Below, piece after piece: positions 7,513 through 21,580 of a DNA stretch of 23,809 nt. Location: positions 1-23,809 of IMG/VR virus record IMGVR_UViG_3300034051_000039. One strand, 5' to 3'. Each line of letters begins with the position of its first letter. Position 1 is the first letter of the stretch. The DNA comes from a virus. A model generated the notes under the pieces. It was given only the letters and a program-made list of their open reading frames with translations, did no database searches and was not told the origin of the DNA. Position numbers and translations under genes: made by a program.

Positions 7513-7739
7513 AAGCAACTTTGACCTATAAGGTGGAGACCCACGAACAGGAGGCCATCTTCAAACGAGCAGTACGTTCCGAGGACGCTTGGAACTCCCT
7601 CTGGGAGACCGAACTATTCTTGCATACAATGGTGCAGGAAGCCAAGCACGAATACGAGCTGATTCTTTGGAAACAAGCGCAGTCCGTATTCCGCAACATC
7701 CTACAAACGAACTCAATATCTCTGGAGAATGAGTACTAA
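7509..7739 (+). CDS. Small phage protein related to the 5746-5964 product
   Basis: A 76-aa protein beginning MKATLTYKVETHEQEAIFKR, then EDAWNSLWETELFLHTMVQE and ending VFRNILQTNSISLENEY. It lines up loosely with the product at 5746-5964: MKA-L, EQE, LW, RN-LQ-N are shared at similar places. It probably belongs to the same broad family of small phage proteins of unknown function. The relation is weak and needs an alignment. It overlaps the glycosyltransferase by four bases and the terminase small subunit by 11. Confidence 0.66.
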   Translation: MKATLTYKVETHEQEAIFKRAVRSEDAWNSLWETELFLHTMVQEAKHEYELILWKQAQSVFRNILQTNSISLENEY

Positions 7740-8076
7740 AACGGACATTACAAAAAGGGCAATGATTGAAGCCCTCGAAAAGTCGCTTGGTATTGTGTCT
7801 ACCGCAGCACGAGTGGTAGGCATCAGCCGCAATACGCACTACGAATGGTACCGTGAAGACCCCAAGTACAAGCAAGAGGTAGACGCTATCGCAGATATGG
7901 CGATTGACTTTGCGGAGTCCTCCCTTCACAACCAGATAAAGGACGGCAACCCTACCTCCACCATCTTCTACTTAAAGACAAAGGGCAAGAGCCGTGGCTA
8001 TGTAGAACGGCAGGAGATAGAACACCACGCAGACAAATCCTTCAAGGTCACCATTGTCGGAGATACGAACGAATAA
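7729..8076 (+). CDS. Terminase small subunit-like DNA-binding protein
   Basis: A 115-aa protein directly before and overlapping the terminase large subunit. The N-terminal half has a helix-turn-helix, KSLGIVSTAARVVGISRNTH followed by YEWYREDPKYKQEVD. The C-terminal half reads DFAESSLHNQIKDGNPTSTI and then FYLKTKGKSRGYVERQEIE, the pattern I know from small terminase-like proteins of Bacteroidota phages. It is expected to recognise the packaging site on phage DNA and to load the large subunit. Length is typical for the compact form. Position and motif agree. Confidence 0.82.
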   Translation: MSTKTDITKRAMIEALEKSLGIVSTAARVVGISRNTHYEWYREDPKYKQEVDAIADMAIDFAESSLHNQIKDGNPTSTIFYLKTKGKSRGYVERQEIEHHADKSFKVTIVGDTNE

Positions 8077-9211
8077 GGTCTTTGCCCACCTACTGCGGAG
8101 CGACAAGCGCATCACAGTAGAGCAGGGTGGAACTCGGAGCGGGAAGACGTATAACATCCTACTCTGGGTTATTTTTCATTATTGTGCTACCAACAGGGAC
8201 AAGGTGGTCACGGTATGCAGAAAGACGTTCCCGTCTCTACGTGCATCGGTGATGCGTGACTTCATCGACATACTGCGAGCGCACGACCTGTATCGGGAAG
8301 AAGACCACAATATGTCCAACCACGAATACCAGCTCAATGGTAACCTGGTGGAGTTCATATCTCTTGACCAACCGCAAAAGATACGGGGACGCAAACGGAA
8401 CCTCCTATACATTAACGAGGCGAACGAACTGTTCTTTGAGGACTGGCAGCAGCTCATCTTCCGTACGGACGGCAAAATCATTCTGGACTACAACCCCTCC
8501 GACTCGTTCCACTGGATATACGACAAGGTACTGACCCGTGACGATTGTGACTTCTACCAAACGACCTACAAAGACAACCCGTTTCTGGATGCCGTCATCA
8601 TTGACGAAATTGAACGCCTCCAGTTTACGGACGAGGACTACTGGCGGGTTTATGGTCTGGGGGAACGTGGCAGCAACCGAGCAGCAGTATTCTCCTTCTC
8701 AGCAAGCGACATCCCAAAAGAAGCAAAACTACTGGCATATGGAATGGACTTCGGTTACACAAACGACCCAACCTCCCTCGTGGGTGTCTACGAGTACGGG
8801 GATGCTCTTTATATGGACGAACTCATCTACCGCACGGGGATGACGAACAGGGACATCCACAACGTCCTGACCGACCTCGGCATCAGCAGATATGCGGAAA
8901 TCTTTGCCGATAGCGCAGAACCGAAATCTATTGACGAGCTGCACCGCTTTGGGTGGAACGTGAAGCCCACCGCCAAAGGCCCAGATTCCGTAATGGCGGG
9001 GATTGATATGATGAAACGCTTTCGCTTACTGGCTACCCCACGAAGCACGAACCTAATCAAGGAACTCCAGAACTACAAGTGGGCGGAGGACAAGAACGGG
9101 AACCTGCTCAATAAACCGATGGACGCTTTCAACCACGCCTGCGATGCTGCGAGATATGCGGTATTTAATAAGAAGGCAAACCCTAACTTTGGACGATACA
9201 CTTTGAGATGA
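8054..9211 (+). CDS. terL: Terminase large subunit
   Basis: A 385-aa PBSX-type large terminase, the motor and nuclease that packages DNA into the prohead. Walker A is GGTRSGKT at 25-32, Walker B with the catalytic glutamate is LLYINEANE at 117-125, and LDYNPSD (144-150) fits motif III. The RNase H-like nuclease has GMDFGY (230-235), FADSAEP (284-290) and DAFNHACDA (357-365), each giving an acidic metal ligand. No ATG is available; the start is TTG 8054, which gives a full N-terminus and overlaps the small subunit by 23 bases. The C-terminus overlaps the next gene as ATGA. Complete and confident. Confidence 0.95.
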   Translation: MSEIRTNKVFAHLLRSDKRITVEQGGTRSGKTYNILLWVIFHYCATNRDKVVTVCRKTFPSLRASVMRDFIDILRAHDLYREEDHNMSNHEYQLNGNLVEFISLDQPQKIRGRKRNLLYINEANELFFEDWQQLIFRTDGKIILDYNPSDSFHWIYDKVLTRDDCDFYQTTYKDNPFLDAVIIDEIERLQFTDEDYWRVYGLGERGSNRAAVFSFSASDIPKEAKLLAYGMDFGYTNDPTSLVGVYEYGDALYMDELIYRTGMTNRDIHNVLTDLGISRYAEIFADSAEPKSIDELHRFGWNVKPTAKGPDSVMAGIDMMKRFRLLATPRSTNLIKELQNYKWAEDKNGNLLNKPMDAFNHACDAARYAVFNKKANPNFGRYTLR

Positions 9212-10128
9212 TATTAGTTGTAGGTCAACCAAACGGAGTTTACTACCACCGACTCCAAGTTCCTTACGAGGATTTGTTAATGCGTGGTTTTGCAGTGAAG
9301 TTCGGCACGATTGCCGACCTCGACCAGTTGAAGGGGCATATCACGCACCTCGTGGTGAATCGGGGTCTGGCAACAAAAGACCACAACAAGTTCAAAGCCC
9401 TGCTGCGGAGTTACGACATCAAGTTCATCGTTGACTTGGATGACTGGTGGAACCTGCCCACCGACCACGTGAACAAGTCACTTGCAAAGGGAACGCAGAT
9501 TCTCAACTCGCTTAAAATAGCGGACGAGATTCACACCACGAACGAGTACCTCGCCGAGAAGATTCAAAAGATAAATCCATACGTTCCAATCTACATCCTG
9601 CCGAATGCGATCGACCCACGGCGGGAGCAATGGACAACAGAGAAGACCACGGAGGAGTTGACCATCGGGTACCTCGGTGCCTTGCATCACGACTACGACC
9701 TCAAGTGGAATGAGATTGACCTGTCAGCTCACAACTCGTATTCAATCGAATACTACCAACAGGCGATTGGTACACGGCAGGCATTCGAGAAAAAGAACTA
9801 CGAGAATTACGGGGAACTGTACAGGCAGGTGGACGTGTCCATCGCACCACTCGCACCAACCGAATTTAACCGATGCAAGTCCAACCTCAAAGCGTTGGAG
9901 GCAGGATTCACCAAGACCTGTATCATCGCACAAAAGATGCACCCGTATACGCCTCTGTTGAACGATAGCAACTCAATCCTTTGCCGTACTCCGAGTGACT
10001 GGAGGGAAGCCCTTGCGTCCATAACAAAAGAGAAAGCGCAGGAGCTGGCCGAGAACCTGTATCACGACGTGCAATTTTTTGACATTGAGAATATCAATAA
10101 CACCCGACAGGAATGCTTCGTAAAGTAA
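9208..10128 (+). CDS. GT-B fold glycosyltransferase-like protein
   Basis: A 306-aa protein resembling group 1 (GT4-like) glycosyltransferases. The N-terminal Rossmann half has MILVVGQPNGVYYHRLQVP and IVDLDDWW (74-81), then DEIHTTNEYLAEKI and YILPNAID (129-136). The C-terminal half has LTIGYLGALHHDYD (151-164), VDVSIAPLAPTEFNRCKSN (208-226) and the donor-binding helix KALEAGF (228-234). Phage proteins of this kind often modify virion or DNA components. It starts by ATGA in the terminase gene and overlaps the chaperone by 16 bases, so it is embedded in the morphogenesis operon. The acceptor is unknown; a virion glycosylation role is inferred from the position. Confidence 0.8.
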   Translation: MILVVGQPNGVYYHRLQVPYEDLLMRGFAVKFGTIADLDQLKGHITHLVVNRGLATKDHNKFKALLRSYDIKFIVDLDDWWNLPTDHVNKSLAKGTQILNSLKIADEIHTTNEYLAEKIQKINPYVPIYILPNAIDPRREQWTTEKTTEELTIGYLGALHHDYDLKWNEIDLSAHNSYSIEYYQQAIGTRQAFEKKNYENYGELYRQVDVSIAPLAPTEFNRCKSNLKALEAGFTKTCIIAQKMHPYTPLLNDSNSILCRTPSDWREALASITKEKAQELAENLYHDVQFFDIENINNTRQECFVK

Positions 10129-10775
10129 TCGTACCCACCGAACTCGCTGACATCACGCTAAAGGATTACCAGCGTTTTATGGGGGCAAACCCCACGGATG
10201 ACACCTTTAACCAACTGGCTCTGTCTATCTTCTGCGGAATCGATGCGGAGGAGTACCCGCTATTCCCAAAGGCGCAACTGGAGGAGATTGAAACGCTTGT
10301 GCAGTTCACCTTGAACGAGAAGCCAGATCTCAAGCGCATCATCAAAATAGGTGACGTTGAGTACGGCTTTCACCCCAACTTGGAGGACATCACCACGGGC
10401 GAGTTTATTGATGCACAGGAATACCTCAAGGACTCCATCAAGAACGCCACCAAATGGCTTGGTGTGCTGTACCGACCAATCACACAGAAGGCCGCAGGAC
10501 GCTACGAGATCGAGGCGTACAACCCAGCGAAACACGACGGAGCAGCATTCGAGAATGTAACGATGGACATCGTGGAGGGGTGTCGACTTTTTTTTACTCG
10601 TTTGCAACTATCATTACAGATAGGTACCCTACTGTCTTCGAGTCCGAACCCAGCGACCAAAGAGCTGCGGACATCAAATCCCAGTTCTCTAAAAAATGGG
10701 GATGGTTTGCAGTCATCCATCAACTTGCTGGCGGAAATGTACTCAATAGTGAGGCCGTCACGAATCTCCCGCTGA
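10113..10775 (+). CDS. Tail assembly chaperone, zero-frame product
   Basis: The zero frame encodes 220 aa from ATG 10113. The first 161 residues look like a genuine phage tail assembly chaperone-like domain (VPTELADITLKDYQRFMGAN, then FNQLALSIFCGIDAEEYPL and FENVTMDIVEGC). At 10588-10595 the gene crosses a T8 run. After it the zero frame reads TRLQLSLQIGTLLSSSPNPA and so on, a low-complexity tail unlike a conserved domain. The -1 frame continues a plausible helical domain to 10855. The slippage yields a longer protein of about 247 aa. The family assignment rests on position, frameshift and pattern, so it is moderate. It overlaps the glycosyltransferase by 16 bases. Confidence 0.72.
   Translation: MLRKVIVPTELADITLKDYQRFMGANPTDDTFNQLALSIFCGIDAEEYPLFPKAQLEEIETLVQFTLNEKPDLKRIIKIGDVEYGFHPNLEDITTGEFIDAQEYLKDSIKNATKWLGVLYRPITQKAAGRYEIEAYNPAKHDGAAFENVTMDIVEGCRLFFTRLQLSLQIGTLLSSSPNPATKELRTSNPSSLKNGDGLQSSINLLAEMYSIVRPSRISR
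10588..10595 (+). other. Candidate -1 slippery site (T8)
   Basis: Read in the zero frame as CTT TTT TTT ACT, the run gives T TTT TTT, a perfect X-XXY-YYZ slippery heptamer. Moving back one base joins the 161-residue N-terminal part to the open -1 frame. A small 5-bp hairpin (CTATC, loop ATTACA, GATAG; 10608-10623) lies 12 bases downstream. Alternatives are transcriptional slippage on U8, or a sequencing loss of one T in a true T9 run. Confidence 0.65.
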
Positions 10776-10855
10776 ACCAATGCCTTACTTGGCTTGCTTA
10801 CGAAGTTGACAAGGCACGAGTCGACCAAGCCCTGATGCGACAGCAAAGCAGGTAG
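10589..10855 (+). CDS. Tail assembly chaperone, C-terminal part in -1 frame
   Basis: This is the -1 continuation of the preceding gene, read only if ribosomes or RNA polymerase slip on the T8 run. It encodes FFYSFATIITDRYPTVFESE, then FSKKWGWFAVIHQLAGGNVL and LPLNQCLTWLAYEVDKARVD, ending at TAG 10853-10855. KWGW, INQLA-like and LP-x-QCL-x-W-L-Y-E patterns fit the end of the same family in Bacteroidota phages. No start codon fits here; codons upstream in this frame (from 10454) are a shadow of the first frame. The fused protein would be about 247 aa. Confidence 0.68.
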   Translation, partial: FFYSFATIITDRYPTVFESEPSDQRAADIKSQFSKKWGWFAVIHQLAGGNVLNSEAVTNLPLNQCLTWLAYEVDKARVDQALMRQQSR

Positions 10856-10857
10856 GG

Positions 10858-10872
10858 GGTTTTATAGTTATG
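10858..10872 (+). promoter_or_regulatory. Leader motif GGTTTTATAGTTATG
   Basis: The 15 bases ending in the start codon of the 10870 gene fit GGTTWTATANNTATG. They match the leaders at 21161-21175 and 23577-23591 with the ATG at the same place. The 14-base gap after the chaperone stop is filled by it. Promoter or translation element, not decided. Confidence 0.5.
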
Positions 10873-11337
10873 AAATACGGATACTATCAACTCTGCGAGG
10901 CGTTGCAATCGGCAGCGACCTCGGCTGATTATATTACGACTACGACTTGGGGAAACATCTTTGACGTTGATATGCGTAAGATGACCCTCTTTCCCCTGTG
11001 TCATATCTTGGTGGGGAACGCCACCGTCAACGAACGGACAGTCACCTACGAGGTTGACCTTCTGGTGATGGACGTAGTGGACTACTCTAAGCAAGACCCG
11101 AACGTAGACCCGTACTCATTTCAAGGGGTAGCGATTAAGCAGGACATCTACCACCGTGCGCTCTTTTCAGCGCAGCAAATGATTGCATCCCTCCGCAGAG
11201 GTGCTTTGTATTCCGATGGCTTTGAGTTGGTGAACGACCCCGTATGCGAGCCGATTGATGAGGACTACGAGAACACCCTTTGCGGGTGGAAGTTCACCCT
11301 CCAAATTATGACCCCGAACCCGACAATCATCTGCTGA
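10870..11337 (+). CDS. Phage tail-region structural protein, likely tail completion or terminator
   Basis: A 155-aa protein of unknown exact function, but of the type I recall in tail modules of Bacteroidota phages. It reads YYQLCEALQSAATSADYITT, then VDMRKMTLFPLCHILVGNAT, VTYEVDLLVMDVVDYS and a C-terminal NDPVCEPIDEDYENTLCGWK. The pairing of CEP-x-x-x-x-x-N-x-L-x-G-W near the end with a beta-rich core suggests a tail terminator or connector fold. It has its own AT-rich leader and overlaps the next gene as TGATG. Structural role fairly likely, specific role inferred from context. Confidence 0.68.
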   Translation: MKYGYYQLCEALQSAATSADYITTTTWGNIFDVDMRKMTLFPLCHILVGNATVNERTVTYEVDLLVMDVVDYSKQDPNVDPYSFQGVAIKQDIYHRALFSAQQMIASLRRGALYSDGFELVNDPVCEPIDEDYENTLCGWKFTLQIMTPNPTIIC

Positions 11338-11849
11338 TGGCGTCTGGAAAGCCCGACTTAAAGAAAGCCGAGAACACCAAGTTTGCCCTTGACAAATTTG
11401 GGAAGTACCTCGTGCAGCAATCACGGGCGAACCTAACCAAGCAGAAAAAGAACGTCACCAAGAACCTGTACAACTCCCTTGCCTACGAAACGAAGGTGAA
11501 CCCCCGCTCCATTGAGTTCGACTTCTTGATGGCTGAATACGGGGAGTGGGTAGATAAGGGAAGGAAGAAGGGCAAGATGCCTCCGTTCGGGGCAATCTAT
11601 GCGTGGGTAGCACGGCGCAAGATTCAATTCAAGGACACCAAGACAAAGAAGTTCCTGTCCTACTCCCAGACCGCCAGTATGGTGATGCTGAAAATTAAGA
11701 ACAAAGGAATCGACCCAACCTACTTCTATTCACGCCCCTTTCAACTGGGGTACGAGAAACTGCCAGATGAGATACGCCAAGCATACGAGCTGGACGTGAT
11801 GCAGTTCCTTGAATTTACAATAAACGAATTGAACAAAAAATATAAGTAA
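11337..11849 (+). CDS. HK97 gp10-like tail/neck completion protein
   Basis: A 170-aa protein from ATG 11337 (TGATG overlap); a longer reading from 11280 would run back into the previous gene. The core fits the HK97 gp10/neck group: helix KFALDKFGKYLVQQSRANLT, then FLMAEYGEWVDKGRKKGKMP with the usual YG-WVD-G---GK-PP, then IYAWVARRKIQF, SYSQTASMVMLKIKNKGIDP and TYFYSRPFQLGYEKL. The G-x-x-PT-x-F-x-x-RPF ending is typical. It likely joins the head and the tail or completes the tail. Next to the tail genes here, not the head genes. Confidence 0.75.
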   Translation: MASGKPDLKKAENTKFALDKFGKYLVQQSRANLTKQKKNVTKNLYNSLAYETKVNPRSIEFDFLMAEYGEWVDKGRKKGKMPPFGAIYAWVARRKIQFKDTKTKKFLSYSQTASMVMLKIKNKGIDPTYFYSRPFQLGYEKLPDEIRQAYELDVMQFLEFTINELNKKYK

Positions 11850-13138
11850 TGGCCATCACTATAGTACAACAACCACCCGCCTACGCCTTCGGCAGTTCAC
11901 CTATGGTGTACGGACTGGACTCTACGGCATACGCATCTACGGGCTTTGCCTACATTGCAGACGTATTCGTGTGGACGGGTTCCATTGCATCCGTTCCTGC
12001 GAGTTACACGTACCGCTTCAAGCTGCGCCCCGATCCCGTTTCCGCTCGTTATGGGTACTTGGATATTCGGAACGTGGTTGACCAGTACCTATCTGCTACC
12101 ACGATAGCCCACGATGACGGCACGGCACAGAACAACGTGGCCTCTGTCGTGAACGTGCAGGTGAAGTTTCGTGAGTACACCAATAGCGGTGGACTTTCTG
12201 GCGTGCTGGCTACATCGAGCAGCATTCGTGCATACGATGGATGGAGTGAGGTGAGTGATGGACTGAATGTGAATCTTGAAACGCAAACGGGAGGCATACT
12301 GACCTCGATGCCGCAGTCCCCTTCTTGGGTTCCTATCTGGGAGGAGCAGCAGATGACGCTTGGAGTGATGCTCGGCTCTACTCCGCCGCCAGACCGCATA
12401 CAAGTAAACTACTCGGACGGCACCTACGGGACGCTATTGTTCTCTACCTTGTCCGTGACGGGAGGCAACAACTCGCAGAACTGGATGTGGTTTATTCCTA
12501 TTGGAATCACCAACCTAAACGCTTCTGCTATTGACCGAAAACCAGAGGACGTTGCGAACCTGCAATGGTATACGATTGACTTCCAACAGGGCTACGCTGC
12601 GGCATACGAGACCCGTGTACTTGCTGATGGCGGCGTATGCGAGGGGCTTGCCTGCTTACAAGCAGCACTCATTGAACTGGCAGGAATCCAAAGCACCTAC
12701 AAGTTTGAGGTTCAATGCGAGCCACGCTACACCCCGCTTACTATTGCCTTCCAAAATAGGTACGGGGCGTGGGATTATTTGCTCGTGCAAAAGAAGTCCG
12801 TGGAGAGCATCAATATCGAGCGAGATACCTATACCGCAAATGTTATTACTCGTTCAGCAGGAACCGCCTCAATACCCTCATACGCAGCGTCAAAGCAATA
12901 CTTCAACACGCAAGGCCAAGAGCAACTGATTGTGAACACGGGATTCATTTCGGAAGGGATGAATGAGATGGTGAAAGATATGATGCTTTCCTCCACCTTG
13001 CAGTTGGTGGAGCAGCAGCAGGGCGTAATTTTGAAGGATACGCAGGTCACCTACAAGACCTCCGTGAATGACAACCTCGTGCAGTACACCTTCACTTTGG
13101 AATACGCAAACCCTGTGAAAAACAAACTATGGCTCTAA
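11849..13138 (+). CDS. Large tail/baseplate-type structural protein
   Basis: A 429-aa protein that starts in a TAATG overlap. It is rich in beta-strand-type sequence (FAYIADVFVWTGSIASVPAS, then YGYLDIRNVVDQYLSATTIA and RIQVNYSDGTYGTLLFSTLS). The LDIRNVVDQYL motif and the paired position with the following very large protein recall the two structural proteins placed before the tape measure gene in several Bacteroidota phages. It may form part of the distal tail or baseplate. Alternatively it is a Fn3-like/Ig-like tail fibre base. No enzyme motif or transmembrane segment is visible. It overlaps the next gene by ten bases. Confidence 0.65.
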   Translation: MAITIVQQPPAYAFGSSPMVYGLDSTAYASTGFAYIADVFVWTGSIASVPASYTYRFKLRPDPVSARYGYLDIRNVVDQYLSATTIAHDDGTAQNNVASVVNVQVKFREYTNSGGLSGVLATSSSIRAYDGWSEVSDGLNVNLETQTGGILTSMPQSPSWVPIWEEQQMTLGVMLGSTPPPDRIQVNYSDGTYGTLLFSTLSVTGGNNSQNWMWFIPIGITNLNASAIDRKPEDVANLQWYTIDFQQGYAAAYETRVLADGGVCEGLACLQAALIELAGIQSTYKFEVQCEPRYTPLTIAFQNRYGAWDYLLVQKKSVESINIERDTYTANVITRSAGTASIPSYAASKQYFNTQGQEQLIVNTGFISEGMNEMVKDMMLSSTLQLVEQQQGVILKDTQVTYKTSVNDNLVQYTFTLEYANPVKNKLWL

Positions 13139-15717
13139 AGATTCAAACCACCACGGGGTATCTTGATACCTACGGGGACGAGTCAATCTCGCTGGACTAC
13201 AACGTGGCGGACTTGCGTGACCCTGCGGTCATCTTCTCTCCGATCACGCAGAACTTCAACCTGCCAGCAACAGACGCCAACAATGCTTTCTTCAAGCACT
13301 ACTACGACGTTAACATACAGGGAGGGTACAACGCCTACTCCAAGCAGCAAATCACCCTGTTCTCGGACGGGGTTGCTCTTTTAGATGGGTACATCCAACT
13401 GCTGAACGTCACCATCCAAGATGGGATGATTAAGGGGTACGAGGTATTGGTTGCTGGAGAGGTGGGCGGCATTGCCCGCACGTTAGGAGAAAGTGAGTTG
13501 AGCGAGTTGCCTCTTGATGCTTTGAATCACACCTTCAACTGGGACAATATCTACGACTCGTGGGTGACGCCTATCGGAGACGCCATAACGTACGGAATGG
13601 TGGACGCAAAGGGATTCGCCACCGATTCGGTGTTCGCTCCGCAGAACCCATTAAAACCGCTTGCTGAAACCAACTTCTACCCGCATATCAAAGTCAAGTA
13701 TCTCATTGAGCAGATATTTGAATCGGCTGGGTACACAATCAACGCAACGGGCTTCTGGGAATCAGAGTACCTCACGGATTTGTATATGCTCCTTTGGACG
13801 AATGATGCTATCGTTCCCAACGAGGAGGCATTCAATTCTCGCCTGTTCCAAGTAGAGAATGATGCCGCCACAACTATAAATAATGGCAATGCCGCCGCCC
13901 CAACGCCACTTACTTTCCCGACAGAGATATACGACAACGGAGGGAACTTTGCATCCGACACCTACACGGCAAACGCAAGAGGCGCATATCAATTCAATTT
14001 TGAAGGAACTCTTGACGGAAACTACAACCTACGAATCCAACCCCGTATCAATGGGGTAGTTGGGCCGAGTTACTGGGTAACTGCAAACACGGACTTCTCG
14101 GTGGACTTCACCTTGAACTTGGAAGCAAATGATGAAGTTCGGTTGTACGCTGCTCACAACGGCGCATTGGGGGTTACCAATTACAGGGATATAAATAGAT
14201 ACACTTGGACGTGTAACTCTGCCCCTTCTTCCCCCGTTGGATTGACGGTATCAATGACGGACTTGATGCCCAAGATGAAGCAGCGGGACTTCATTGCAGG
14301 GGTGGCAAAGCTGTTCAACCTTGTCATCGTTCCCGATCGGGATACGCCAAACACGCTCAACGTGTACGACTATCAAACTTGGATTGCAACGGGAGCAGTA
14401 AAGGACTGGACGTACAAGGTCGACATTTCGCAACCAATCACCATCCAACCGACCACCGACCTACAAGGTCGCTCAATTAACTTCACCTTCCAAGAGGGCG
14501 GGGCAATCATCGAGCAGGCGTTCAAGAACTCCTTTGGCTACTCCCACGGAACGCTGCAAATTGCAGACACCGCAAACGAGTTCGCACAGGGCGAGTTCAG
14601 CGTAGAGGTTCCCTTTGTGTCTTCCCTGTACAACCGACTGAACAACACCGCCAATCTGGAGATATTGCAGCTCTTTGACCTTGAAGGAAAGGCCATCGAT
14701 AGCCAACCCCGATTGATGTGGTACCACGGGCGGCGTGAGTGCGTTCGGTATTCGGTGATTGACCAGTCCACTACGACCTTTCTGCAACTGTACGAATACC
14801 CAAAATTCGGGGTATACACGGAGGGATATACCAAAGACATCACCCTCACCTTTGGGCAGGCGGTCTTGGACAACCGCATCCCGCCTCCGTACAATTTGTT
14901 CACGGAGTTCTGGGCTACCTATCTAACCGAAATCTACGCATCGGATGCGGTGATGCTTACGGCGCAAGTGGTGCTTGAACCATCGGAGGTATACAACCTC
15001 GACTTGAACACCCAAATCTACCTCGACCAAGAATACTGGCGAATCAACAAGCTGACAGGATACGACCCCGAGAAGCGCACAGGAACGATTGAACTATTCC
15101 GTGCCTCGTTTGCGAACGGCATCATCTGTACCGACCTACCTACAATAATGAACTATGACGGGAGTGTCGGAGGGTTAACTACACAGAGCTGCTGCGAATA
15201 CTACGGCTACCGATGGAACTCTACAAATAGCACTTGTTACTGGCGCACCTCTAAATTGCTATCGTTAAAGGATGACCTTCAAGCGATGCGCCACACGGCA
15301 ACAGTTTCCCTTGAGCCAGAGCAACCGACCAGCACACAACCAAACCAAGTGTTCTTATTCGATGCTGAACTTACGGAGGAAGGCGTAAGCGAGGCGGCAG
15401 CATACGCCCTGCTCGACTACTCACGCAGCCCGTTTGACCTTGTTGAAGGTCAGCGCAAGATGTTCCTGCTATCGGCAGTAATCGAAGAATCAGGAGGTGT
15501 AACTCACACGGACTCGCATTATTATGTAGTGGAGCGTGCGTCAGTTGGTGATATTATTACCGAGATCCGACCAACAACTCACGACCACGATTTTGGAATA
15601 GCTCTGCTTGCGGTTTTTGATGTTACTGATCGAGTGGTGGGAGTACATTGCCTATCCTTAAAAAATGCAAATGGCCCAAGCGTATGGAAAATCCGAATGG
15701 AAGTACAACAGATATGA
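13129..15717 (+). CDS. Large distal tail / tip protein
   Basis: An 862-aa beta-rich protein beginning MALKIQTTTGYLDTYGDESI and SLDYNVADLRDPAVIFSPIT, followed by FNLPATDANNAFFKHYYDVN. This opening (Y-D-D-x-S-I-x-L-D-Y-x-x-x-D-I/L--P, then LPAT--NN-FF-Y-DVN) is typical of distal tail proteins of Bacteroidota phages. A Cys-rich module CCEYYGYRWNSTNSTCYW lies near residues 687-704. The C-terminal 150 residues differ in character and may carry a receptor-binding or fibre-attachment part. The length fits tip proteins with a receptor-binding appendage. It overlaps both neighbours. Confidence 0.72.
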   Translation: MALKIQTTTGYLDTYGDESISLDYNVADLRDPAVIFSPITQNFNLPATDANNAFFKHYYDVNIQGGYNAYSKQQITLFSDGVALLDGYIQLLNVTIQDGMIKGYEVLVAGEVGGIARTLGESELSELPLDALNHTFNWDNIYDSWVTPIGDAITYGMVDAKGFATDSVFAPQNPLKPLAETNFYPHIKVKYLIEQIFESAGYTINATGFWESEYLTDLYMLLWTNDAIVPNEEAFNSRLFQVENDAATTINNGNAAAPTPLTFPTEIYDNGGNFASDTYTANARGAYQFNFEGTLDGNYNLRIQPRINGVVGPSYWVTANTDFSVDFTLNLEANDEVRLYAAHNGALGVTNYRDINRYTWTCNSAPSSPVGLTVSMTDLMPKMKQRDFIAGVAKLFNLVIVPDRDTPNTLNVYDYQTWIATGAVKDWTYKVDISQPITIQPTTDLQGRSINFTFQEGGAIIEQAFKNSFGYSHGTLQIADTANEFAQGEFSVEVPFVSSLYNRLNNTANLEILQLFDLEGKAIDSQPRLMWYHGRRECVRYSVIDQSTTTFLQLYEYPKFGVYTEGYTKDITLTFGQAVLDNRIPPPYNLFTEFWATYLTEIYASDAVMLTAQVVLEPSEVYNLDLNTQIYLDQEYWRINKLTGYDPEKRTGTIELFRASFANGIICTDLPTIMNYDGSVGGLTTQSCCEYYGYRWNSTNSTCYWRTSKLLSLKDDLQAMRHTATVSLEPEQPTSTQPNQVFLFDAELTEEGVSEAAAYALLDYSRSPFDLVEGQRKMFLLSAVIEESGGVTHTDSHYYVVERASVGDIITEIRPTTHDHDFGIALLAVFDVTDRVVGVHCLSLKNANGPSVWKIRMEVQQI

Positions 15718-15875
15718 TTGACCTCGGTTTTATAGTTAACGCCCTCAAGCAACCCAACCTCGGCCTGTCCGAGGAGGTGGAAATCGCAAAAGGAAAGTAT
15801 CACATCATCAGCAGCATCGCCCAAGCAGGGGTACAAATCAAGAGACAATGGCAACGGAGAAGGTTATCAAATTAA
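15714..15875 (+). CDS. Small hypothetical protein between tail tip and tape measure
   Basis: A 53-aa protein from ATG 15714, in ATGA overlap with the tip protein and 28 bases inside the start of the tape measure gene. Sequence: MIDLGFIVNALKQPNLGLSE, then EVEIAKGKYHIISSIAQAGV and a basic end QIKRQWQRRRLSN. A longer reading from 15648 would overlap the previous gene by 70 bases and is less likely. No family recognised; small proteins in this position sometimes help tail assembly. Moderate confidence that it is expressed. Confidence 0.55.
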   Translation: MIDLGFIVNALKQPNLGLSEEVEIAKGKYHIISSIAQAGVQIKRQWQRRRLSN

Positions 15876-17578
15876 AGGTTGAAAATGGTGAAGCCATCCT
15901 TGCCGTTGACGAACTCAACAAGGCGTTAAAGGAGACGAACACCCAAGCGGACAACCTTGACAATACCATCGACGCAGGAACCGAAGCCCTTGACAAGTTC
16001 ACAAAGGGTGGGGTAAGTGCGATGAAGGGTCTCATCAGCGGTGCCAAGACCGCTATTGGTGCGATGACTACCCTCAAGGGTGCGTTAATATCGACAGGTA
16101 TTGGTGCGCTGGTAGTTGCCGTTGGTACCCTTGCTGCCTACTTCACGCAGACCAGCCGAGGCGCAGACCAGTTTGCCGTGATTCTTGGAACGGTAGAGGC
16201 GGCTATCAAGGTGGTAATTGACCGTGCTGTAATGCTCGGAGAATCAATCACCCTTATATTCTCTGGCAAATTTAGTGAAGCAGCAGACAAAGCCAAAAAT
16301 GCTTTCAAGGGAATCGGTGACGAAATCGCCAGAGAAGCAAAGCAAGGTGGTGAACTTGCGAAGGCATTGGATGCGGTAGAAGACCGTGAGCGTGCCTTGA
16401 TTGTCTTGCGTGCCAAAGCGAATAAGGAAATCGCCAAAGCACGGATGATTGCTGATGACGTCAACAAATCCACAAACGAGCGAATCAACGCAGTACAGCG
16501 TGCGTTCAAGTTGGAGAGTGATGTAGCAGCAGCCGAACAAAAGAACGCCCGTGCGTACCTCAAATACTTGGACGATCGCATCAAGATGGGCGAGTCCACG
16601 GACGAGGACTTGAAAGCCCGTTCAGAAGCCCAAGCGAAGGTCTTGGAACTGGAGACGGAATCACTCCGCAGGCAGAAGCGATTGCAGGGTGAAATTATTT
16701 CCTTGCGTAACGAGGAGCGTACCAAGACAGAGGAGTACGACAAGAAGCGAGCGGAAGCCGCACAGAAGGAATTGGGATACCAGCGGTTCTTGGTAGACGG
16801 AGAAAAGGAACTGATTGAACTGGCCAACAAGCGACAAGCGTCACGAGTAAAAGCCCTTGAGGAGTTCCAAGCGGCACTTGACCGCCTACGGGGTGTGGGT
16901 CAGACCGAACGCCAAAGGGAAATTAAGCAAGTCGAGGCAGACGCAAAGGCGGCTCTTGACGCATTGATAGCGTCTGGGAATGCCAGTATCTACGAGGCAG
17001 AAAGAATTGAGGCAGAGAAGCGCAAAGCCGAGCGCAAGGTCAACGAGAAGTACGATTCGTTAGACCGCCAACGGCAGATGGAGAACAACGCCAAGAAGCT
17101 GGAGTTAGCAGGGCAGGCGTTTGGTGCTTTGGCACAGTTGGCGGAATCGTTCTCCAAAGGGGACGAGAAGAACGCACGGAGAGCATTCGGAATCACCAAA
17201 GCCCTGCGTATTGGTGAGGCGGTAGCAAACACCGCAGCAGCCATTATGACGCAACTGGCAGTACCACAGGACGCATTGACTGGTGCTAACTTCGTGAAGG
17301 CGGGAATCGTTGCCGTAACAGGCGCAGCGCAAATCGCAACCATTGCCCGCTCTAAATTTGAGCCAAGTGGTGCAGCAGCAGAAACTCCGAGAATGGGGGC
17401 CGCACCTCCAGCGGGCGGCGGAGGGTTTACCCCGAACATCTCATTCACGGGAATCGGACAGAATCCGCTCTCTGGTATCTTTGACCGCCCGATGCAGGCG
17501 TATGTAGTCAATCAACAAATGAATAACAATAATATGCTGGAGCGCAGAATCCGTACCAGCGCAAATTTCGGAGGATGA
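15848..17578 (+). CDS. Tail tape measure protein
   Basis: A 576-aa protein whose length sets the tail length. Residues 60-98 are hydrophobic (MKGLISGAKTAIGAMTTLKG, then GIGALVVAVGTLAAYF), as usual for tape measure proteins. Long charged coiled-coil stretches follow (EAADKAKNAFKGIGDEIARE, LELETESLRRQKRLQGEIIS, then AERKVNEKYDSLDRQRQMEN). The end is Gly-rich (RMGAAPPAGGGGFTPNISFT). At 576 aa it is short, suggesting a short flexible-tailed (siphovirus-type) virion. It starts after the small upstream gene and ends in an ATGA overlap with the protease. No lytic transglycosylase or peptidase domain is visible. Confidence 0.86.
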   Translation: MATEKVIKLKVENGEAILAVDELNKALKETNTQADNLDNTIDAGTEALDKFTKGGVSAMKGLISGAKTAIGAMTTLKGALISTGIGALVVAVGTLAAYFTQTSRGADQFAVILGTVEAAIKVVIDRAVMLGESITLIFSGKFSEAADKAKNAFKGIGDEIAREAKQGGELAKALDAVEDRERALIVLRAKANKEIAKARMIADDVNKSTNERINAVQRAFKLESDVAAAEQKNARAYLKYLDDRIKMGESTDEDLKARSEAQAKVLELETESLRRQKRLQGEIISLRNEERTKTEEYDKKRAEAAQKELGYQRFLVDGEKELIELANKRQASRVKALEEFQAALDRLRGVGQTERQREIKQVEADAKAALDALIASGNASIYEAERIEAEKRKAERKVNEKYDSLDRQRQMENNAKKLELAGQAFGALAQLAESFSKGDEKNARRAFGITKALRIGEAVANTAAAIMTQLAVPQDALTGANFVKAGIVAVTGAAQIATIARSKFEPSGAAAETPRMGAAPPAGGGGFTPNISFTGIGQNPLSGIFDRPMQAYVVNQQMNNNNMLERRIRTSANFGG

Positions 17579-18531
17579 AGTATTACGAATTGGTGCTTGA
17601 AAATGAGCAGTTTATGGGGGTGAATGCTATCTCGGTAGTGGAGAACCCCGCAATCGAGGAGGAGTTTGTAGCCCTCTCCGCACAACAGGTGTCCTTCGCT
17701 ATCCAAAACGAGGAGAAGCGTATCATCATCGGGCCAGTCCTAATCCCGAACAAGCCCATCTACCGCAGGGACGACAAGACAGGCGAGGAGTATTACGTCT
17801 TCTTTACGGACAAAACCATCCGCCAAAGTGCGGAGTTGTTCCTCAAAAAGGGTCTCCAAGCGTCTACCACCACGGAGCATTCGCAACAGGTGAACGGGGT
17901 CACGACCATCGAGCAATGGATTATTGAGGACGAGGTACACGACAAGTCACGCAAGTACGGAATGAACTACCCAATCGGTACTTGGATGCAGACCCGCAAG
18001 GTCGACAACGACCAAGTGTGGGAGGACGTAAAATCTGGCAAGTACAAGGGCTATTCCATCGAGGGATGGTTCGCACACAAGCCATCGTTGGAAGTGGCGA
18101 TGAGTTCAATGCAGGAGATTGAGGAGCAAGAGGCAGAACACCTCGTTGAACTGTACGTTCTGGGAGCCGTCAAGGGAATCCTAAAAAAAGACAAGCGAGT
18201 AAAGGCAGGCCAACGGGTAGTTATGGAATCATATTCTGACTACCCCGAGGCCGTGCGCAATAACGCAAAGCGAGGCATTGAGTTGAACGAGAAAGGCGGT
18301 AACAAGTGCGCCACGCCAGTTGGCAAGATACGAGCGCAGCAACTCGCAGACGGAAAGCCCGTATCGTTTGACACCGTGAAGCGGATGTTCTCCTACCTAT
18401 CAAGAGCCGAGGAGTATTACGACGAAACCGACTCTACCGCTTGCGGCACTATCTCCTACCTCCTTTGGGGTGGACTGGCTGCGAAGCGTTGGGCAGAATC
18501 TAAAATAAAGGAAAATGAAAAACAATCCTAA
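17575..18531 (+). CDS. XkdF-like prohead protease with C-terminal extra domain
   Basis: A 318-aa protein. Residues about 50-175 match the XkdF family of putative prohead proteases: GPVLIPNKPIYRRDDKTGEE, YYVFFTDKTIRQSAELFLKK, STTTEHSQQVNGVTTIEQWI and KYKGYSIEGWF. The H in TTTEH and S in GYSIEG may be the catalytic pair, by analogy with phage HK97-type serine proteases. The C-terminal third (YPEAVRNNAKRGIELNEKGG, then CATPVGKIRAQQLADGKPVS and GTISYLLWGGLAAKRW) is a separate conserved module, usually fused to or near phage head proteins. It would process scaffold and capsid. Overlaps the tape measure and the next gene. Confidence 0.85.
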   Translation: MKYYELVLENEQFMGVNAISVVENPAIEEEFVALSAQQVSFAIQNEEKRIIIGPVLIPNKPIYRRDDKTGEEYYVFFTDKTIRQSAELFLKKGLQASTTTEHSQQVNGVTTIEQWIIEDEVHDKSRKYGMNYPIGTWMQTRKVDNDQVWEDVKSGKYKGYSIEGWFAHKPSLEVAMSSMQEIEEQEAEHLVELYVLGAVKGILKKDKRVKAGQRVVMESYSDYPEAVRNNAKRGIELNEKGGNKCATPVGKIRAQQLADGKPVSFDTVKRMFSYLSRAEEYYDETDSTACGTISYLLWGGLAAKRWAESKIKENEKQS

Positions 18532-18667
18532 ACCACCCGTACCCCCCAACTCACGGCGTGGATGCCTCTGCAAAGACGGCACCTACTCCCGAAAATGCTG
18601 CGACCCGAATGATATGTGGGCGCAAGGAATCGGATTTATCGGAGGCAAAAATACCCAAAACCCCTAA
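18515..18667 (+). CDS. Small Cys-rich phage protein (RRGCLC family)
   Basis: A 50-aa protein from ATG 18515, overlapping the protease by 17 bases. It reads PPVPPNSRRGCLCKDGTYSR then KCCDPNDMWAQGIGFIGGK. The order RRGCLC-x-DG-x-Y-S-x-x-CC then QGIG is a conserved small-protein pattern I recall from Bacteroidota phages, always near capsid genes. Four cysteines (17, 19, 28, 29) could bind a metal or form disulfides. Function unknown; presumably a head accessory. Confidence 0.7.
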   Translation: MKNNPKPPVPPNSRRGCLCKDGTYSRKCCDPNDMWAQGIGFIGGKNTQNP

Positions 18668-18684
18668 TCTCTAATTATTATACT

Positions 18685-19236
18685 ATGAACTTGAACGACA
18701 TTTTCAAGAAAATTGAGTTCGCTCTGCAACCCGAAGCGGTTGCCCTTGCGAGCGCAAAGTTGGCTGATGGTACTATGGTGGAAGCCGAGGTACTTGAGGC
18801 AGGTCAAAACATCTTCCTTATCGGAAGCGAAGGCGAGAAGGTGGCTGTACCCGTTGGTGAATACCAAATGGAGGACGGTCGCATCTTGGTCGTGACGGAA
18901 GAAGGCGTGATTGCCGAAATCAAAGAGAAGGCAGAGGAAGCAGAGCAGGAAGTGACCATCGAGGTCGAGGCAGCTGCTGAACCTACCCTCCCAGAGATGA
19001 TGGCGATGATTCAATCCCTCAAAGAGGAGGTTGAAATGATGAAGGCAGAAATGGGCAACAAAGAAGAAATGTCCGTGGAAGTCGAGAAAGAGGAGGAAGT
19101 GAAAGAGGTGGTAATGGCCGCAGAGAAGCCCATCGTGGCTGCCCCTGTCGAGGTTAAACCCGAACTGAAATTCCAAATCGGTGCGAAGCGTACTGCGACA
19201 ACCGCAGACCGAGTATTCAACAAATTATTTAACTAA
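18685..19236 (+). CDS. Scaffold/capsid assembly-like protein
   Basis: A 183-aa protein from ATG 18685 after a short AT-rich gap; a reading from 18616 would run through the stop region of the previous gene. The first half is beta-rich with LADGTMVEAEVLEAGQNIFL, PVGEYQMEDGRILVVTEEGV and IAEIKEK. The second half is a long glutamate-rich helix (EAEQEVTIEVEAAAEPTLPE, then MMAMIQSLKEEVEMMKAEMG). The end is basic (FQIGAKRTATTADRVFNKLF). Placement directly before the major capsid gene and the helical middle suit a scaffolding protein cleaved by the protease. Role inferred. Confidence 0.75.
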   Translation: MNLNDIFKKIEFALQPEAVALASAKLADGTMVEAEVLEAGQNIFLIGSEGEKVAVPVGEYQMEDGRILVVTEEGVIAEIKEKAEEAEQEVTIEVEAAAEPTLPEMMAMIQSLKEEVEMMKAEMGNKEEMSVEVEKEEEVKEVVMAAEKPIVAAPVEVKPELKFQIGAKRTATTADRVFNKLFN

Positions 19237-19252
19237 CCCCCCCACATAGATA

Positions 19253-20185
19253 ATGGCAACGACCACTTCTATCACGACCACTTACGCTGGTCAGTTTGCA
19301 GGCCAGTACATCTCTGCTGCCCTGTTGAGCGGTGACACCATCGCAAAAGGCGGCTTGACTGTCAAGCCAAACATCAAATTCAAAGAAGTAATCAAGCGTG
19401 TAGAGCTGGATGGTATCGTAAAAGACCAGACCTGCGACTTCACCGACACTTCCACTTTGACCTTGACCGAGCGCATCTTGCAGCCCGAGTTCTTGCAGGT
19501 TAACTTGGAGTTGTGCAAGAGCGACTTCGAGAGCGATTGGGAAGCCATCCAAATGGGCTACTCCGCTTTTGACGTTCTGCCCAAGAACTTCGTTGACTAC
19601 TTCATCGCCTACAACTCTGCTAAAGTAGCCGAGTGGATCGAGCAGAAAATCTGGACTGGTGCTACTGCCAACGCAGGTGAGTTCAACGGCTTCCAAGCGT
19701 TGCTTGCTGCTGACTCTACTGTCATTGACGTAACTGCTGCAACTGCTGGCGTATCTTCTTCCAACGTCATCGCTGAATTGGGCAAGGTTGTAGACGCTAT
19801 CCCTACCGCATTGTTCGGTAAGGAAGACCTGCACATCTACATCCCGACCAACGTGATGAAGGCATACGTCCGTGCATTGGGCGGATTCGGTGCTTCTGGC
19901 TTGGGTGCTGCGGGTGTGGACTCAAAAGGTTCTACGTGGTTCAACAACCAAGAGCTGATGTTCGAAGGTATCAAGTTGTTCCACGCTCCTGGTCTTGGTT
20001 CAAACAAAATGGTTGCAGGTCAGAAGTCAAACTTGTACTTCGGCTGCGGGCTTTTGAGCGATACCAACGAAGTCAAGGTGCTGGATATGAGCGACTTGGA
20101 TGGCAGCAAGAACGTACGTTTCATTATGCGTATGACTGCTGGTGTTCAGTTTGGAGTAGGTGCCGACTTGGTATACTACGCCTAA
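19253..20185 (+). CDS. Major capsid protein
   Basis: A 310-aa protein with a HK97-like capsid-fold order. It opens MATTTSITTTYAGQFAGQYI, then VKPNIKFKEVIKRVELDGIV and QPEFLQVNLELCKSDFESDW, FVDYFIAYNSAKVAEWIEQK (long spine-like helix) and a C-terminal MRMTAGVQFGVGADLVYYA. It lies after protease and scaffold genes, as expected, and before the HNH gene and the major tail protein. Codon use is biased toward GCT, GGT and CGT compared with neighbours, which fits very high expression. No signal peptide. It starts after a C7 run, without an obvious Shine-Dalgarno. Confidence 0.87.
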   Translation: MATTTSITTTYAGQFAGQYISAALLSGDTIAKGGLTVKPNIKFKEVIKRVELDGIVKDQTCDFTDTSTLTLTERILQPEFLQVNLELCKSDFESDWEAIQMGYSAFDVLPKNFVDYFIAYNSAKVAEWIEQKIWTGATANAGEFNGFQALLAADSTVIDVTAATAGVSSSNVIAELGKVVDAIPTALFGKEDLHIYIPTNVMKAYVRALGGFGASGLGAAGVDSKGSTWFNNQELMFEGIKLFHAPGLGSNKMVAGQKSNLYFGCGLLSDTNEVKVLDMSDLDGSKNVRFIMRMTAGVQFGVGADLVYYA

Positions 20186-20195
20186 TCGCTGAAGG

Positions 20196-20534
20196 ATGAC
20201 GCAGGGGGAGGGCTTGGGTAAAACACCCTCGTCCTCCCTTTTGTGTTTGAACTGTTCAAAGCAGTTGACGGGTCAGCAGGCGAAATTCTGCTGCGAGAAG
20301 TGCAAGCAATCGTGGAGGTATAAAACAAAAGGAGCAGTACGACCAAAAGATGTCTATCGAAAGCACAAGAAAGCGACTTGCGAAATGTGTGGATTTATTC
20401 CTGTCCACCCTTGCCAGCTTGATGTCGACCATATAGACGGCAACCGCCACAACCACGAATTGAGCAACCTGCAAACACTATGCGCTAATTGTCACCGATT
20501 AAAAACTCACATTTCTAACGATTACAAAAAATAA
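20196..20534 (+). CDS. Free-standing HNH endonuclease (homing type)
   Basis: A 112-aa protein with an N-terminal zinc ribbon (C17-x2-C20 in LLCLNCSKQL; C32/C33 and C36 in KFCCEKCKQSW) and an HNH core. The core has C62-x2-C65 (TCEMCGF), DVDHIDGN with D78/H79, LSNLQTLC with N91, and C96-x2-C99-H100 (CANCH). It is complete. Its insertion between major capsid and major tail genes, with its own AAGGATG start, is typical of homing endonucleases that invade conserved phage genes and spread by cutting related phages. It does not interrupt a gene. Nuclease call firm; mobility inferred. Confidence 0.88.
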   Translation: MTQGEGLGKTPSSSLLCLNCSKQLTGQQAKFCCEKCKQSWRYKTKGAVRPKDVYRKHKKATCEMCGFIPVHPCQLDVDHIDGNRHNHELSNLQTLCANCHRLKTHISNDYKK

Positions 20535-20540
20535 AATAAA

Positions 20541-21095
20541 ATGGCTTGTTCATTAACACTTGGGCGCATCGAGCCCTGCAAAGACCAAGTTGGAGGACTG
20601 AATGCGGTCTACTTCATCAACTCCATTGACTTGGCACAAATCTCCTACGACACCGCTGACACGGATGTCATTGACCAACTGGCCACTACTGCCACGAGTG
20701 CCTACAAGTACGACTTGAAAGGAACTTCAAACTTTGAGCAGGCCATCACTTCCAGCCGTGACAACGGCACGACCTTCTTCGAGCAGGTGTTGAACATCGT
20801 TCTCAAGAAGCAAGATGCCGATACCCACAAAGAGGTAAAGTTGCTCGCTTGGGCGAAGCCCGTAGTGATTGTCGAGGACAACAACGGCAACGCTTGGGTG
20901 ATGGGCTTGGAACACGGTTCAGAAGTAACGGGTGGTTCTATCGTAACTGGTTCTGCAATGGGAGACCTTACGGGCTACAACTTGACCTTGACGGGTCAAG
21001 AGCGTGTGCCTGCAAACTTCCTGCTCGGAGCGGTGGCGAATAACCCGTTCGCTGGATTGTCTGGTACCAAACCAACAATCGTACTTGGGTCGTAA
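20541..21095 (+). CDS. Major tail (tube) protein
   Basis: A 184-aa protein from ATG 20541, seven bases after the HNH stop, with an A-rich leader (AAAAAATAAAATAAA). It begins MACSLTLGRIEPCKDQVGGL, then AVYFINSIDLAQISYDTADT, YDLKGTSNFEQAITSSRDNG and AWVMGLEHGSEVTGGSIVTG, with LTLTGQERVPANFLLGAV near the end. This fits the tail tube proteins of Bacteroidota siphovirus-like phages. It sits directly behind the capsid module and before a strong terminator. Tube role inferred from pattern and place. Confidence 0.8.
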   Translation: MACSLTLGRIEPCKDQVGGLNAVYFINSIDLAQISYDTADTDVIDQLATTATSAYKYDLKGTSNFEQAITSSRDNGTTFFEQVLNIVLKKQDADTHKEVKLLAWAKPVVIVEDNNGNAWVMGLEHGSEVTGGSIVTGSAMGDLTGYNLTLTGQERVPANFLLGAVANNPFAGLSGTKPTIVLGS

Positions 21096-21112
21096 TTAGA
21101 CCAACGGGACGT

Positions 21113-21141
21113 GAGAGGGGGCTTCGGCCCCCTTTCTTTTT
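21113..21141 (+). terminator. Rho-independent terminator
   Basis: A 10-bp stem, GAGAGGGGGC pairing with GCCCCCTTTC (one G-T pair), closes a TTCG tetraloop and is followed by TTTTT. It lies 18 bases after the major tail protein stop, so it ends the head-tail transcription unit. The stem and tail are visible directly; strength is inferred. Confidence 0.88.
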
Positions 21142-21160
21142 CACATAAGTCCCACTCTTG

Positions 21161-21175
21161 GGTTATATAGGTATG
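21161..21175 (+). promoter_or_regulatory. Leader motif GGTTATATAGGTATG
   Basis: The 15 bases ending in ATG 21173 fit GGTTWTATANNTATG, as at 10858 and 23577. They stand 19 bases after the terminator's T-tract, so a new promoter must lie in or near 21142-21172. The TTATATA could act as its core. Confidence 0.55.
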
Positions 21176-21580
21176 ACTTTCGTATCATATAAAGCCCAGA
21201 ACACTATCACTCTGCCCGTGCGTGACTGGCAGGTGGGGGTTGATACCCTCGCAGGGTACAATACAACGTGGCGAGTTCAGATGGTTTTGTACTCCAAAGA
21301 CGGACGCACGGACACTATCTACAACGTGACCTCCCCTACCTTTGACGCAGACACTCGTGAGTTCACGTTCACTTACAATACCACCCCACTTGATGCCGAG
21401 GTAGTGTATATGATTCGCCTCACGGAACAGACATTCAACGTGGCTTGGACAAATACCAAGATACTCGCATTCGATCGTTTGCTGATGCTTCCGAGTGGTC
21501 AAACAACAAGCACCTATCAACCCGTCCTCCCGACAGTAGAGGAGACAATGAACAATCAGTTCAAGATTTATGGAGAATAA
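21173..21580 (+). CDS. Small phage structural protein, 135 aa
   Basis: From ATG 21173, right behind the GGTTATATA leader. An in-frame alternative start at 21158 lies inside the leader and is less likely. It is beta-rich and looks Ig-like: SYKAQNTITLPVRDWQVGVD, then TWRVQMVLYSKDGRTDTIYN, FDADTREFTFTYNTTPLDAE and VVYMIRLTEQ. The C-terminus reads LPTVEETMNNQFKIYGE. It overlaps the portal by 11 bases in a different frame. A head or tail accessory protein is likely from its context; no family is recognised. Confidence 0.65.
   Translation: MTFVSYKAQNTITLPVRDWQVGVDTLAGYNTTWRVQMVLYSKDGRTDTIYNVTSPTFDADTREFTFTYNTTPLDAEVVYMIRLTEQTFNVAWTNTKILAFDRLLMLPSGQTTSTYQPVLPTVEETMNNQFKIYGE

Follow-up and report, generated by a model that had tools for sequence, protein, structure and literature searches.

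A conserved poly-T frame transition joins two reading frames of a putative structural-module gene in a family of aquatic phages

The window, by which we mean the whole stretch of DNA that was analysed (a virus record of 23,809 bases), holds a gene that runs into a tract of eight T's and can be read beyond it in two frames. Is this one gene broken by a lost base, two separate genes, or a single gene programmed to make two proteins? An earlier note took it for a tail assembly chaperone gene with a -1 frameshift, and the arrangement that it described, with the run in the phase CTT TTT TTT ACT and the -1 frame ending at 10855, is the one that we find (Table 1). Joined through the -1 frame, the N-part and the C-part give a fused product of 247 residues, which is identical whether a ribosome slips by -1 or the mRNA carries one extra U. 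A T8 run is unremarkable in the window by itself (8 matches against 2.1 expected), and the case therefore rests on comparison. The C-part modelled alone reaches only modest confidence (pLDDT 70).

Table 1. Features of the frame-switch gene in the window, with the evidence for each
Feature	Position	Strand	Evidence
Zero-frame ORF, 220 residues: common N-part (161 residues) and 59-codon zero-frame tail	10113..10775	+	PHROG 32199, E 4.6e-15; N-part model pLDDT 92
N-part common to both products, ending in GCRLFF	10113..10595	+	Aligned in 22 representatives; present in 250 loci; matches columns 13-209 of the single-frame family
Shine-Dalgarno-like GGAGGGG, 7 bases before the T run	10574..10580	+	In nearly all members of the T8 genus; at every locus that covers the site, as GGAGGGA in L009 and L010
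Slip run T8, read in the zero frame as CTT TTT TTT ACT	10588..10595	+	Uninterrupted T run of at least 8 at this place in 250/250 loci
C-part in the -1 frame, 86 residues and stop	10595..10855	+	PHROG 38404, E 2.7e-5; aligned in 21 representatives; matches the C-terminal end of the single-frame family directly after FF
Dual-coded overlap, 59-codon zero-frame tail over the -1 C-part	10596..10772	+	Zero-frame openness, and substitution pattern in the first 12 codons, both family-wide
Small hairpin ACAGAUAGGUACCCUACUGU, 3' of the run	10616..10635	+	Predicted; one A-U to G-U change keeps it; not conserved outside the genus

The gene belongs to a large family of aquatic phages whose cultured members infect Flavobacteria. 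Loci were recruited by patterns in the N-part only, and profile HMMs then placed the N- and C-parts in any of the three forward frames, with no frame presupposed. The C-part lies in the -1 frame in all 188 distinct loci of the first round (77 lineages at <70% identity) and in all 250 distinct loci of the second (94 lineages), while the six loci that lack a C-part are all cut at most 59 bases from the junction. Among these 250 loci and 94 lineages, neither a single-frame gene nor a different heptamer occurs. The run is T8 in 14 loci, T9 in 164, T10 in 70 and T12 in 2; counted by N-part lineage, 73 have T9, 19 have T10 and one has T12, and the sole T8 lineage is the window's own genus. Every junction carries an A/T run of at least 8, and there are 191 such runs elsewhere in about 1 Mb of the first-round loci. 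Within the T8 genus, the 21 close relatives whose contigs include the site (N-part identity 92–100%) all read exactly C-T8-A, and the zero-frame stop is unchanged wherever the contig extends to it. The gene pair is present in the isolated Nonlabens phages P12024L and P12024S, in the same -1 relation with T9, and is annotated there as two hypothetical proteins (genes 40 and 41 in P12024L). The C-terminus that the earlier note thought plausibly conserved in the -1 frame is present across the family, and there is strong support for a programmed transition that links the frames of the N-part and the C-part. From the frame relation and the invariant T run, together with the single-frame homologues and the selection on both tails described below, we regard a programmed two-product arrangement as nearly certain.

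Two loci depart from the common layout. At L063 (1942-1956) the -1 frame stops soon after a T10 run (LQFRE*), and the long form appears to have been lost or the contig to be in error. At L062 (2537-3440) the gene merges with the apparent next gene into a chimeric ORF of 301 residues that looks like a deletion or an assembly chimera. The PHROG 38404 match at 10688-10828 of the window shows that the C-part is listed as an unknown family by itself. Databases probably split the protein wrongly, and the isolates annotate the C-part as a gene of its own.

A structure search with the N-part model led to a protein of Flavobacterium phage 6H and from there to a group of phages in which the corresponding protein is a single ORF of 259–301 residues: 23T, FPSV-F7, laban6-1 and Cellulophaga phage Ingeline, and more remotely Polaribacter phage Leef and Microcystis phages. 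In profile comparisons, columns 13-209 of this single-frame family match the N-part (hhalign prob 96.9, E 1.6e-10), columns 209-292 match the C-part (prob 53.5, E 1.3e-4), and the two alignments are contiguous at the junction FF. Ten loci of the single-frame type match in one frame along their length, two of them being isolates of this group. PHROG 25418 (23T, laban6-1, Ingeline) and the remote Leef and Microcystis relatives thus share with the poly-T family the order of the two parts and an FF or similar pair at the junction, but unlike it they have one uninterrupted ORF, at most T6 at the junction and no apparent second product. From these sequences, the FF is a feature of the protein, and the long pure T run is particular to the two-frame family. 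The fused protein is real, as these remote relatives have N-part and C-part within a single frame; this is what the alignment of homologues that the earlier note had called for brings out. The note would have given up its reading had raw reads shown T9 at the site and all relatives a single open frame; single frames are found only in the remote relatives. In the deposited 6H genome (L249, KC959568, 10050-10927, minus strand) the homologous gene is split over two frames, whereas in 23T and FPSV-F7, which are 98% identical to 6H, it is a single ORF of 293 residues; the out-of-frame C-part of 6H is probably a sequence difference of that record.

These comparisons bear on two simpler readings of the locus. 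One is that a true T9 lost a T in sequencing or assembly and that the gene is really single-frame. Homopolymers are prone to such errors, and the deposited 6H record has its gene out of frame, unlike its close relatives; but T8 recurs in 21 contigs, 250 loci share one frame relation with runs of 8, 9, 10 or 12, and the isolate genomes P12024L and P12024S have the same arrangement. The independent T8 contigs and the constant relation across 250 loci lead us to reject the loss of a T, which the earlier note had kept in play, as practically impossible. The other is that the locus makes two separate proteins, the N-part with its zero-frame tail and an independently initiated C-part, as the two annotated genes of the isolates (P12024L genes 40 and 41) would have it. 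Against this, every lineage has the start of the profile-defined C-part at the T run, within the N ORF; in the single-frame relatives N-part and C-part form one continuous sequence; and separate proteins would leave the strict phase and the conservation of the T run unexplained. We consider that reading very unlikely.

The zero-frame tail had been described in the earlier note as a shadow and its product as broken. The tail has 59 codons in the window and 50–59 codons in about half of 238 loci. When the synonymous codons of the -1 frame were shuffled, the zero frame was expected to stay open for 21 codons; about 55 are observed, and five control stretches in the N-part lie near expectation (5.5–10.6 observed, 5.2–9.2 expected). 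Codon-position rates were taken from 67 independent pairs. The -1 third positions change at a rate of only 0.028 [0.015–0.045] in codons 2–12 after the run, compared with 0.105 in codons 13–48, 0.158 in codons 61–80 and 0.196 in the N-part, while the -1 first positions, which are the third positions of the zero frame, change at 0.06–0.07 throughout. Low third positions next to unaffected first positions are what zero-frame coding leaves behind and an RNA signal would not, and this trace is strongest in the first 12 codons. Together with the openness, this pattern indicates that both products are under selection over a long dual-coded overlap. The tail is therefore no shadow. The note's view of the zero-frame product as broken, from which it took the fused form to be the working protein, is not supported, as the zero-frame tail is selected.

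The conserved overlap might instead reflect a signal in the RNA and not dual coding. The very low third-position change falls in the first 36 bases after the run, and a stretch of some 54 bases hardly varies within the T8 genus, both of which such a signal would explain. But the -1 first positions change at the normal rate, as zero-frame coding predicts and an RNA signal does not, the zero frame stays open for about 55 codons and not 21, and the family has yielded no structural signal. We think an RNA-level signal improbable; it competes with one part only of our account, and its probability is not exclusive of those given to other readings.

Stimulatory elements are common, though not required, in ribosomal -1 frameshifting, and we looked for them around the run in the window, in its genus and in the family. 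The 118 bases downstream of the run in the window fold with a z of -2.59, and no compensatory changes or covariation support this fold within the T8 genus. The small hairpin that the earlier note placed 12 bases after the run lies about 20 bases after it, within this significant fold, but it has neither compensatory changes nor a counterpart in the family. An ACUCG/CGAGU stem seen in the single-sequence fold of the window is broken in three loci (L015, L020 and L022) and was discarded. Across the family no structure 3' of the run is conserved: z averages +0.11 in 77 lineages and lies between -0.37 and -0.01 in control stretches from those loci. Upstream Shine-Dalgarno-like elements are not enriched either (2 of 77 lineages, control mean 3.2). 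GGAGGGG is a possible ribosomal stimulator in the T8 genus only. In that genus about 54 bases 3' of the run (10610-10671 in the window) are near-invariant, more so than the surrounding gene.

Standard decoding would give the N-part with its zero-frame tail, a protein of 220 residues in the window, and a fraction of expression events would enter the -1 frame inside the T run to give the 247-residue form, the presumed counterpart of the full-length protein that remote relatives encode in a single frame. Both products are probably made in cells. How the frame is changed may differ between members. Across the family the switch would be due mainly to slippage at transcription, with RNA polymerase inserting an extra U at T9 or T10 as in Shigella mxiE; in the T8 genus, with its T8 only, its upstream G-rich element and its foldable downstream region, slipping of the ribosome by -1 on U UUU UUU may play a part or even predominate. 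Slippage at transcription, which the earlier note had left open, is favoured for the family over slipping of the ribosome because there is no conserved RNA structure or Shine-Dalgarno-like stimulator and because the run is held at 9–10 in each of the three registers relative to the codons. With the T8 genus set aside, it has at least 9 T's in every register, while the heptamer T TTT TTT requires just 7, 8 or 9 according to register. In the clade with the H-F/W/Y-G motif (53 lineages) T's at the two outer positions are nearly mutually exclusive (25/27/1/0; Fisher 3e-14, which excludes independence of the two positions but not a strict requirement for U UUU UUU, since that also forbids a non-T at both), and this near-exclusion is what holds the run at 9–10. 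Such a strict requirement does not explain why T11 is absent or why there are excess T's. Nine A's or T's is the commonest length with selection against slippage in bacteria, and some IS elements carry A8 instead of A9 and still appear productive (PMC1088944). In E. coli, U UUU UUU and U UUU UUA are far less shift-prone than A AAA AAG (PMC5009743).

The main competitor is programmed -1 frameshifting by the ribosome, which would slip on U UUU UUU with little or no stimulator and yield a low level of the fused product; lambda G/GT and P2 E/E' are the precedents. U UUU UUU is in phase at every locus, and a strict ribosomal heptamer in each run accounts for much of the length floor. The precedents among tail genes are ribosomal as well (P2 E+E' is annotated as a -1 frameshift; PMC5009743), and the window has GGAGGGG before its run and a downstream fold at z -2.59. 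Hydrophobic flanking residues may alone force some of the T's; as FF is present in the single-frame relatives, FF and its hydrophobic neighbours are partly dictated by the protein. The upper limit on run length may reflect a general purging of long homopolymers. A further point against slippage is that the window's own T8 lies below the family floor and is accompanied by the Shine-Dalgarno-like element and the foldable region. Against ribosomal frameshifting, not one of the 94 lineages has an alternative heptamer, even U UUU UUA, UUG or UUC, in place of a T run of 8 or more, no conserved structure or Shine-Dalgarno element was found in the family, and the floor of 9 outside the T8 genus departs from the register-specific minima of the heptamer (7, 8 and 9). 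Ribosomal frameshifting for the family as a whole is in our judgement a serious but lesser possibility. Our preferred account, two proteins from a structural-module gene through a poly-T frame transition that is mostly transcriptional slippage across the family, with a chaperone-like role the likeliest, is probable by a modest margin. For the window's T8 genus, transcriptional and ribosomal mechanisms are nearly even, and this is the least certain part of the account. A bolder version, in which length-tuned slippage on poly-T makes a two-form chaperone-like structural protein with about 55 codons read twice and the T8 genus has perhaps turned ribosomal, a phage counterpart of dnaX, is one that we hold tentatively, at slightly less than an even chance.

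Ribosomal frameshifting has its textbook example in the tail genes of phages, and to our knowledge the tail assembly chaperones known so far use it. Like lambda G/GT, the window gene has a short form and a -1-extended long form with a common N-part, a slippery run and a place in the structural module of a phage, and in all 250 loci a conserved frame shift links the two overlapping ORFs. It differs from lambda in its junction, which is always poly-T and not GGGAAAG, in its zero frame, with about 55 further codons under selection where lambda G ends near the slip site, and in having remote relatives that encode the fused form in a single frame. P2 E/E' has a T-rich slip site, TTTTTTG, into the -1 frame and in this resembles the window family with a shorter run; sequence similarity to P2 E/E' and Mu gp41 (Phage_TAC_7) is not significant (best E 0.028), and Mu uses a -2 shift. 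Shigella mxiE also consists of overlapping ORFs that are joined by an extra U on a T run, the longer product requiring slippage; mxiE is an unrelated gene, whereas the window family belongs to phages, its arrangement is conserved in about 94 lineages and its slippage is predicted from sequence. An A/T run of about 9 or longer at the junction, as expected of slippage systems, is conserved in 93 of the 94 lineages, the window's T8 genus being the exception; the in-phase heptamer X XXY YYZ expected of ribosomal systems is present as T TTT TTT at all listed junctions. The dnaX genes of E. coli (ribosomal) and Thermus (slippage) are homologues that reach one two-product result by both routes, a parallel to the T8 genus, with its possible ribosomal stimulators, and the T9/T10 members; the shorter dnaX product is in effect truncated, whereas both ends of the window family are long coding tails.

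The name "tail assembly chaperone" given in the earlier note is plausible but has weak support. Architecture and weak similarity make a chaperone-like pair, short and long with a common N domain, the likeliest role. Phage_TAC_7 (P2 E, Mu gp41) is the commonest Pfam match, in 3 of 22 and 2 of 11 members in two scans whose alignments partly overlap in members, at E 0.03–0.04, below significance. Alignment to Mu gp41 gives E 0.028 with prob 1.8 (hhalign), and Foldseek gives E 7.2 for the HK97 chaperone 2OB9 in the PDB and E 0.25 for a viral model annotated as a chaperone. No significant chaperone homology was found with Pfam, NCBIfam, hhalign or Foldseek/PDB, the results being suggestive or nil. 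Position argues against the name: unlike lambda G/GT, which lies between the tail tube and tape measure genes, the window gene comes right after terminase and glycosyltransferase genes, and not between a major tail protein and a tape measure. Next comes a short conserved gene (10870-11337), whose homologue stands behind the gene pair in P12024L (E 6e-12); the tape measure candidate (15848-17578) lies several genes downstream. We class the frame-switch gene as one that plausibly works like a chaperone pair, at most a putative member of that family. The gene order over 7729-23576 is unusual: terminase, glycosyltransferase, frame-switch gene, further genes, tape measure candidate, protease, and then a scaffold-like gene, a capsid candidate, an HNH-like ORF and portal.

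We found no description of the frame switch of the poly-T family in the literature searched, which lay largely outside subscription journals. What is new here is the switch tuned by poly-T, the long dual-coded overlap and the single-frame relatives; the two-product logic was already known. If it is the length of the run that is conserved, and not a codon-phased heptamer, slippage of RNA polymerase would be a second route to that logic. Natural T8, T9, T10 and T12 sites together with single-frame relatives form a ready test set. Annotation splits or truncates the protein in the isolates examined, and the long dual-coded region had been missed. The window has a T9 run also at 1731-1739, within a single-frame sigma-factor-like ORF (1602-2117), and if the host polymerase slips on T9 this ORF would leak out-of-frame products.
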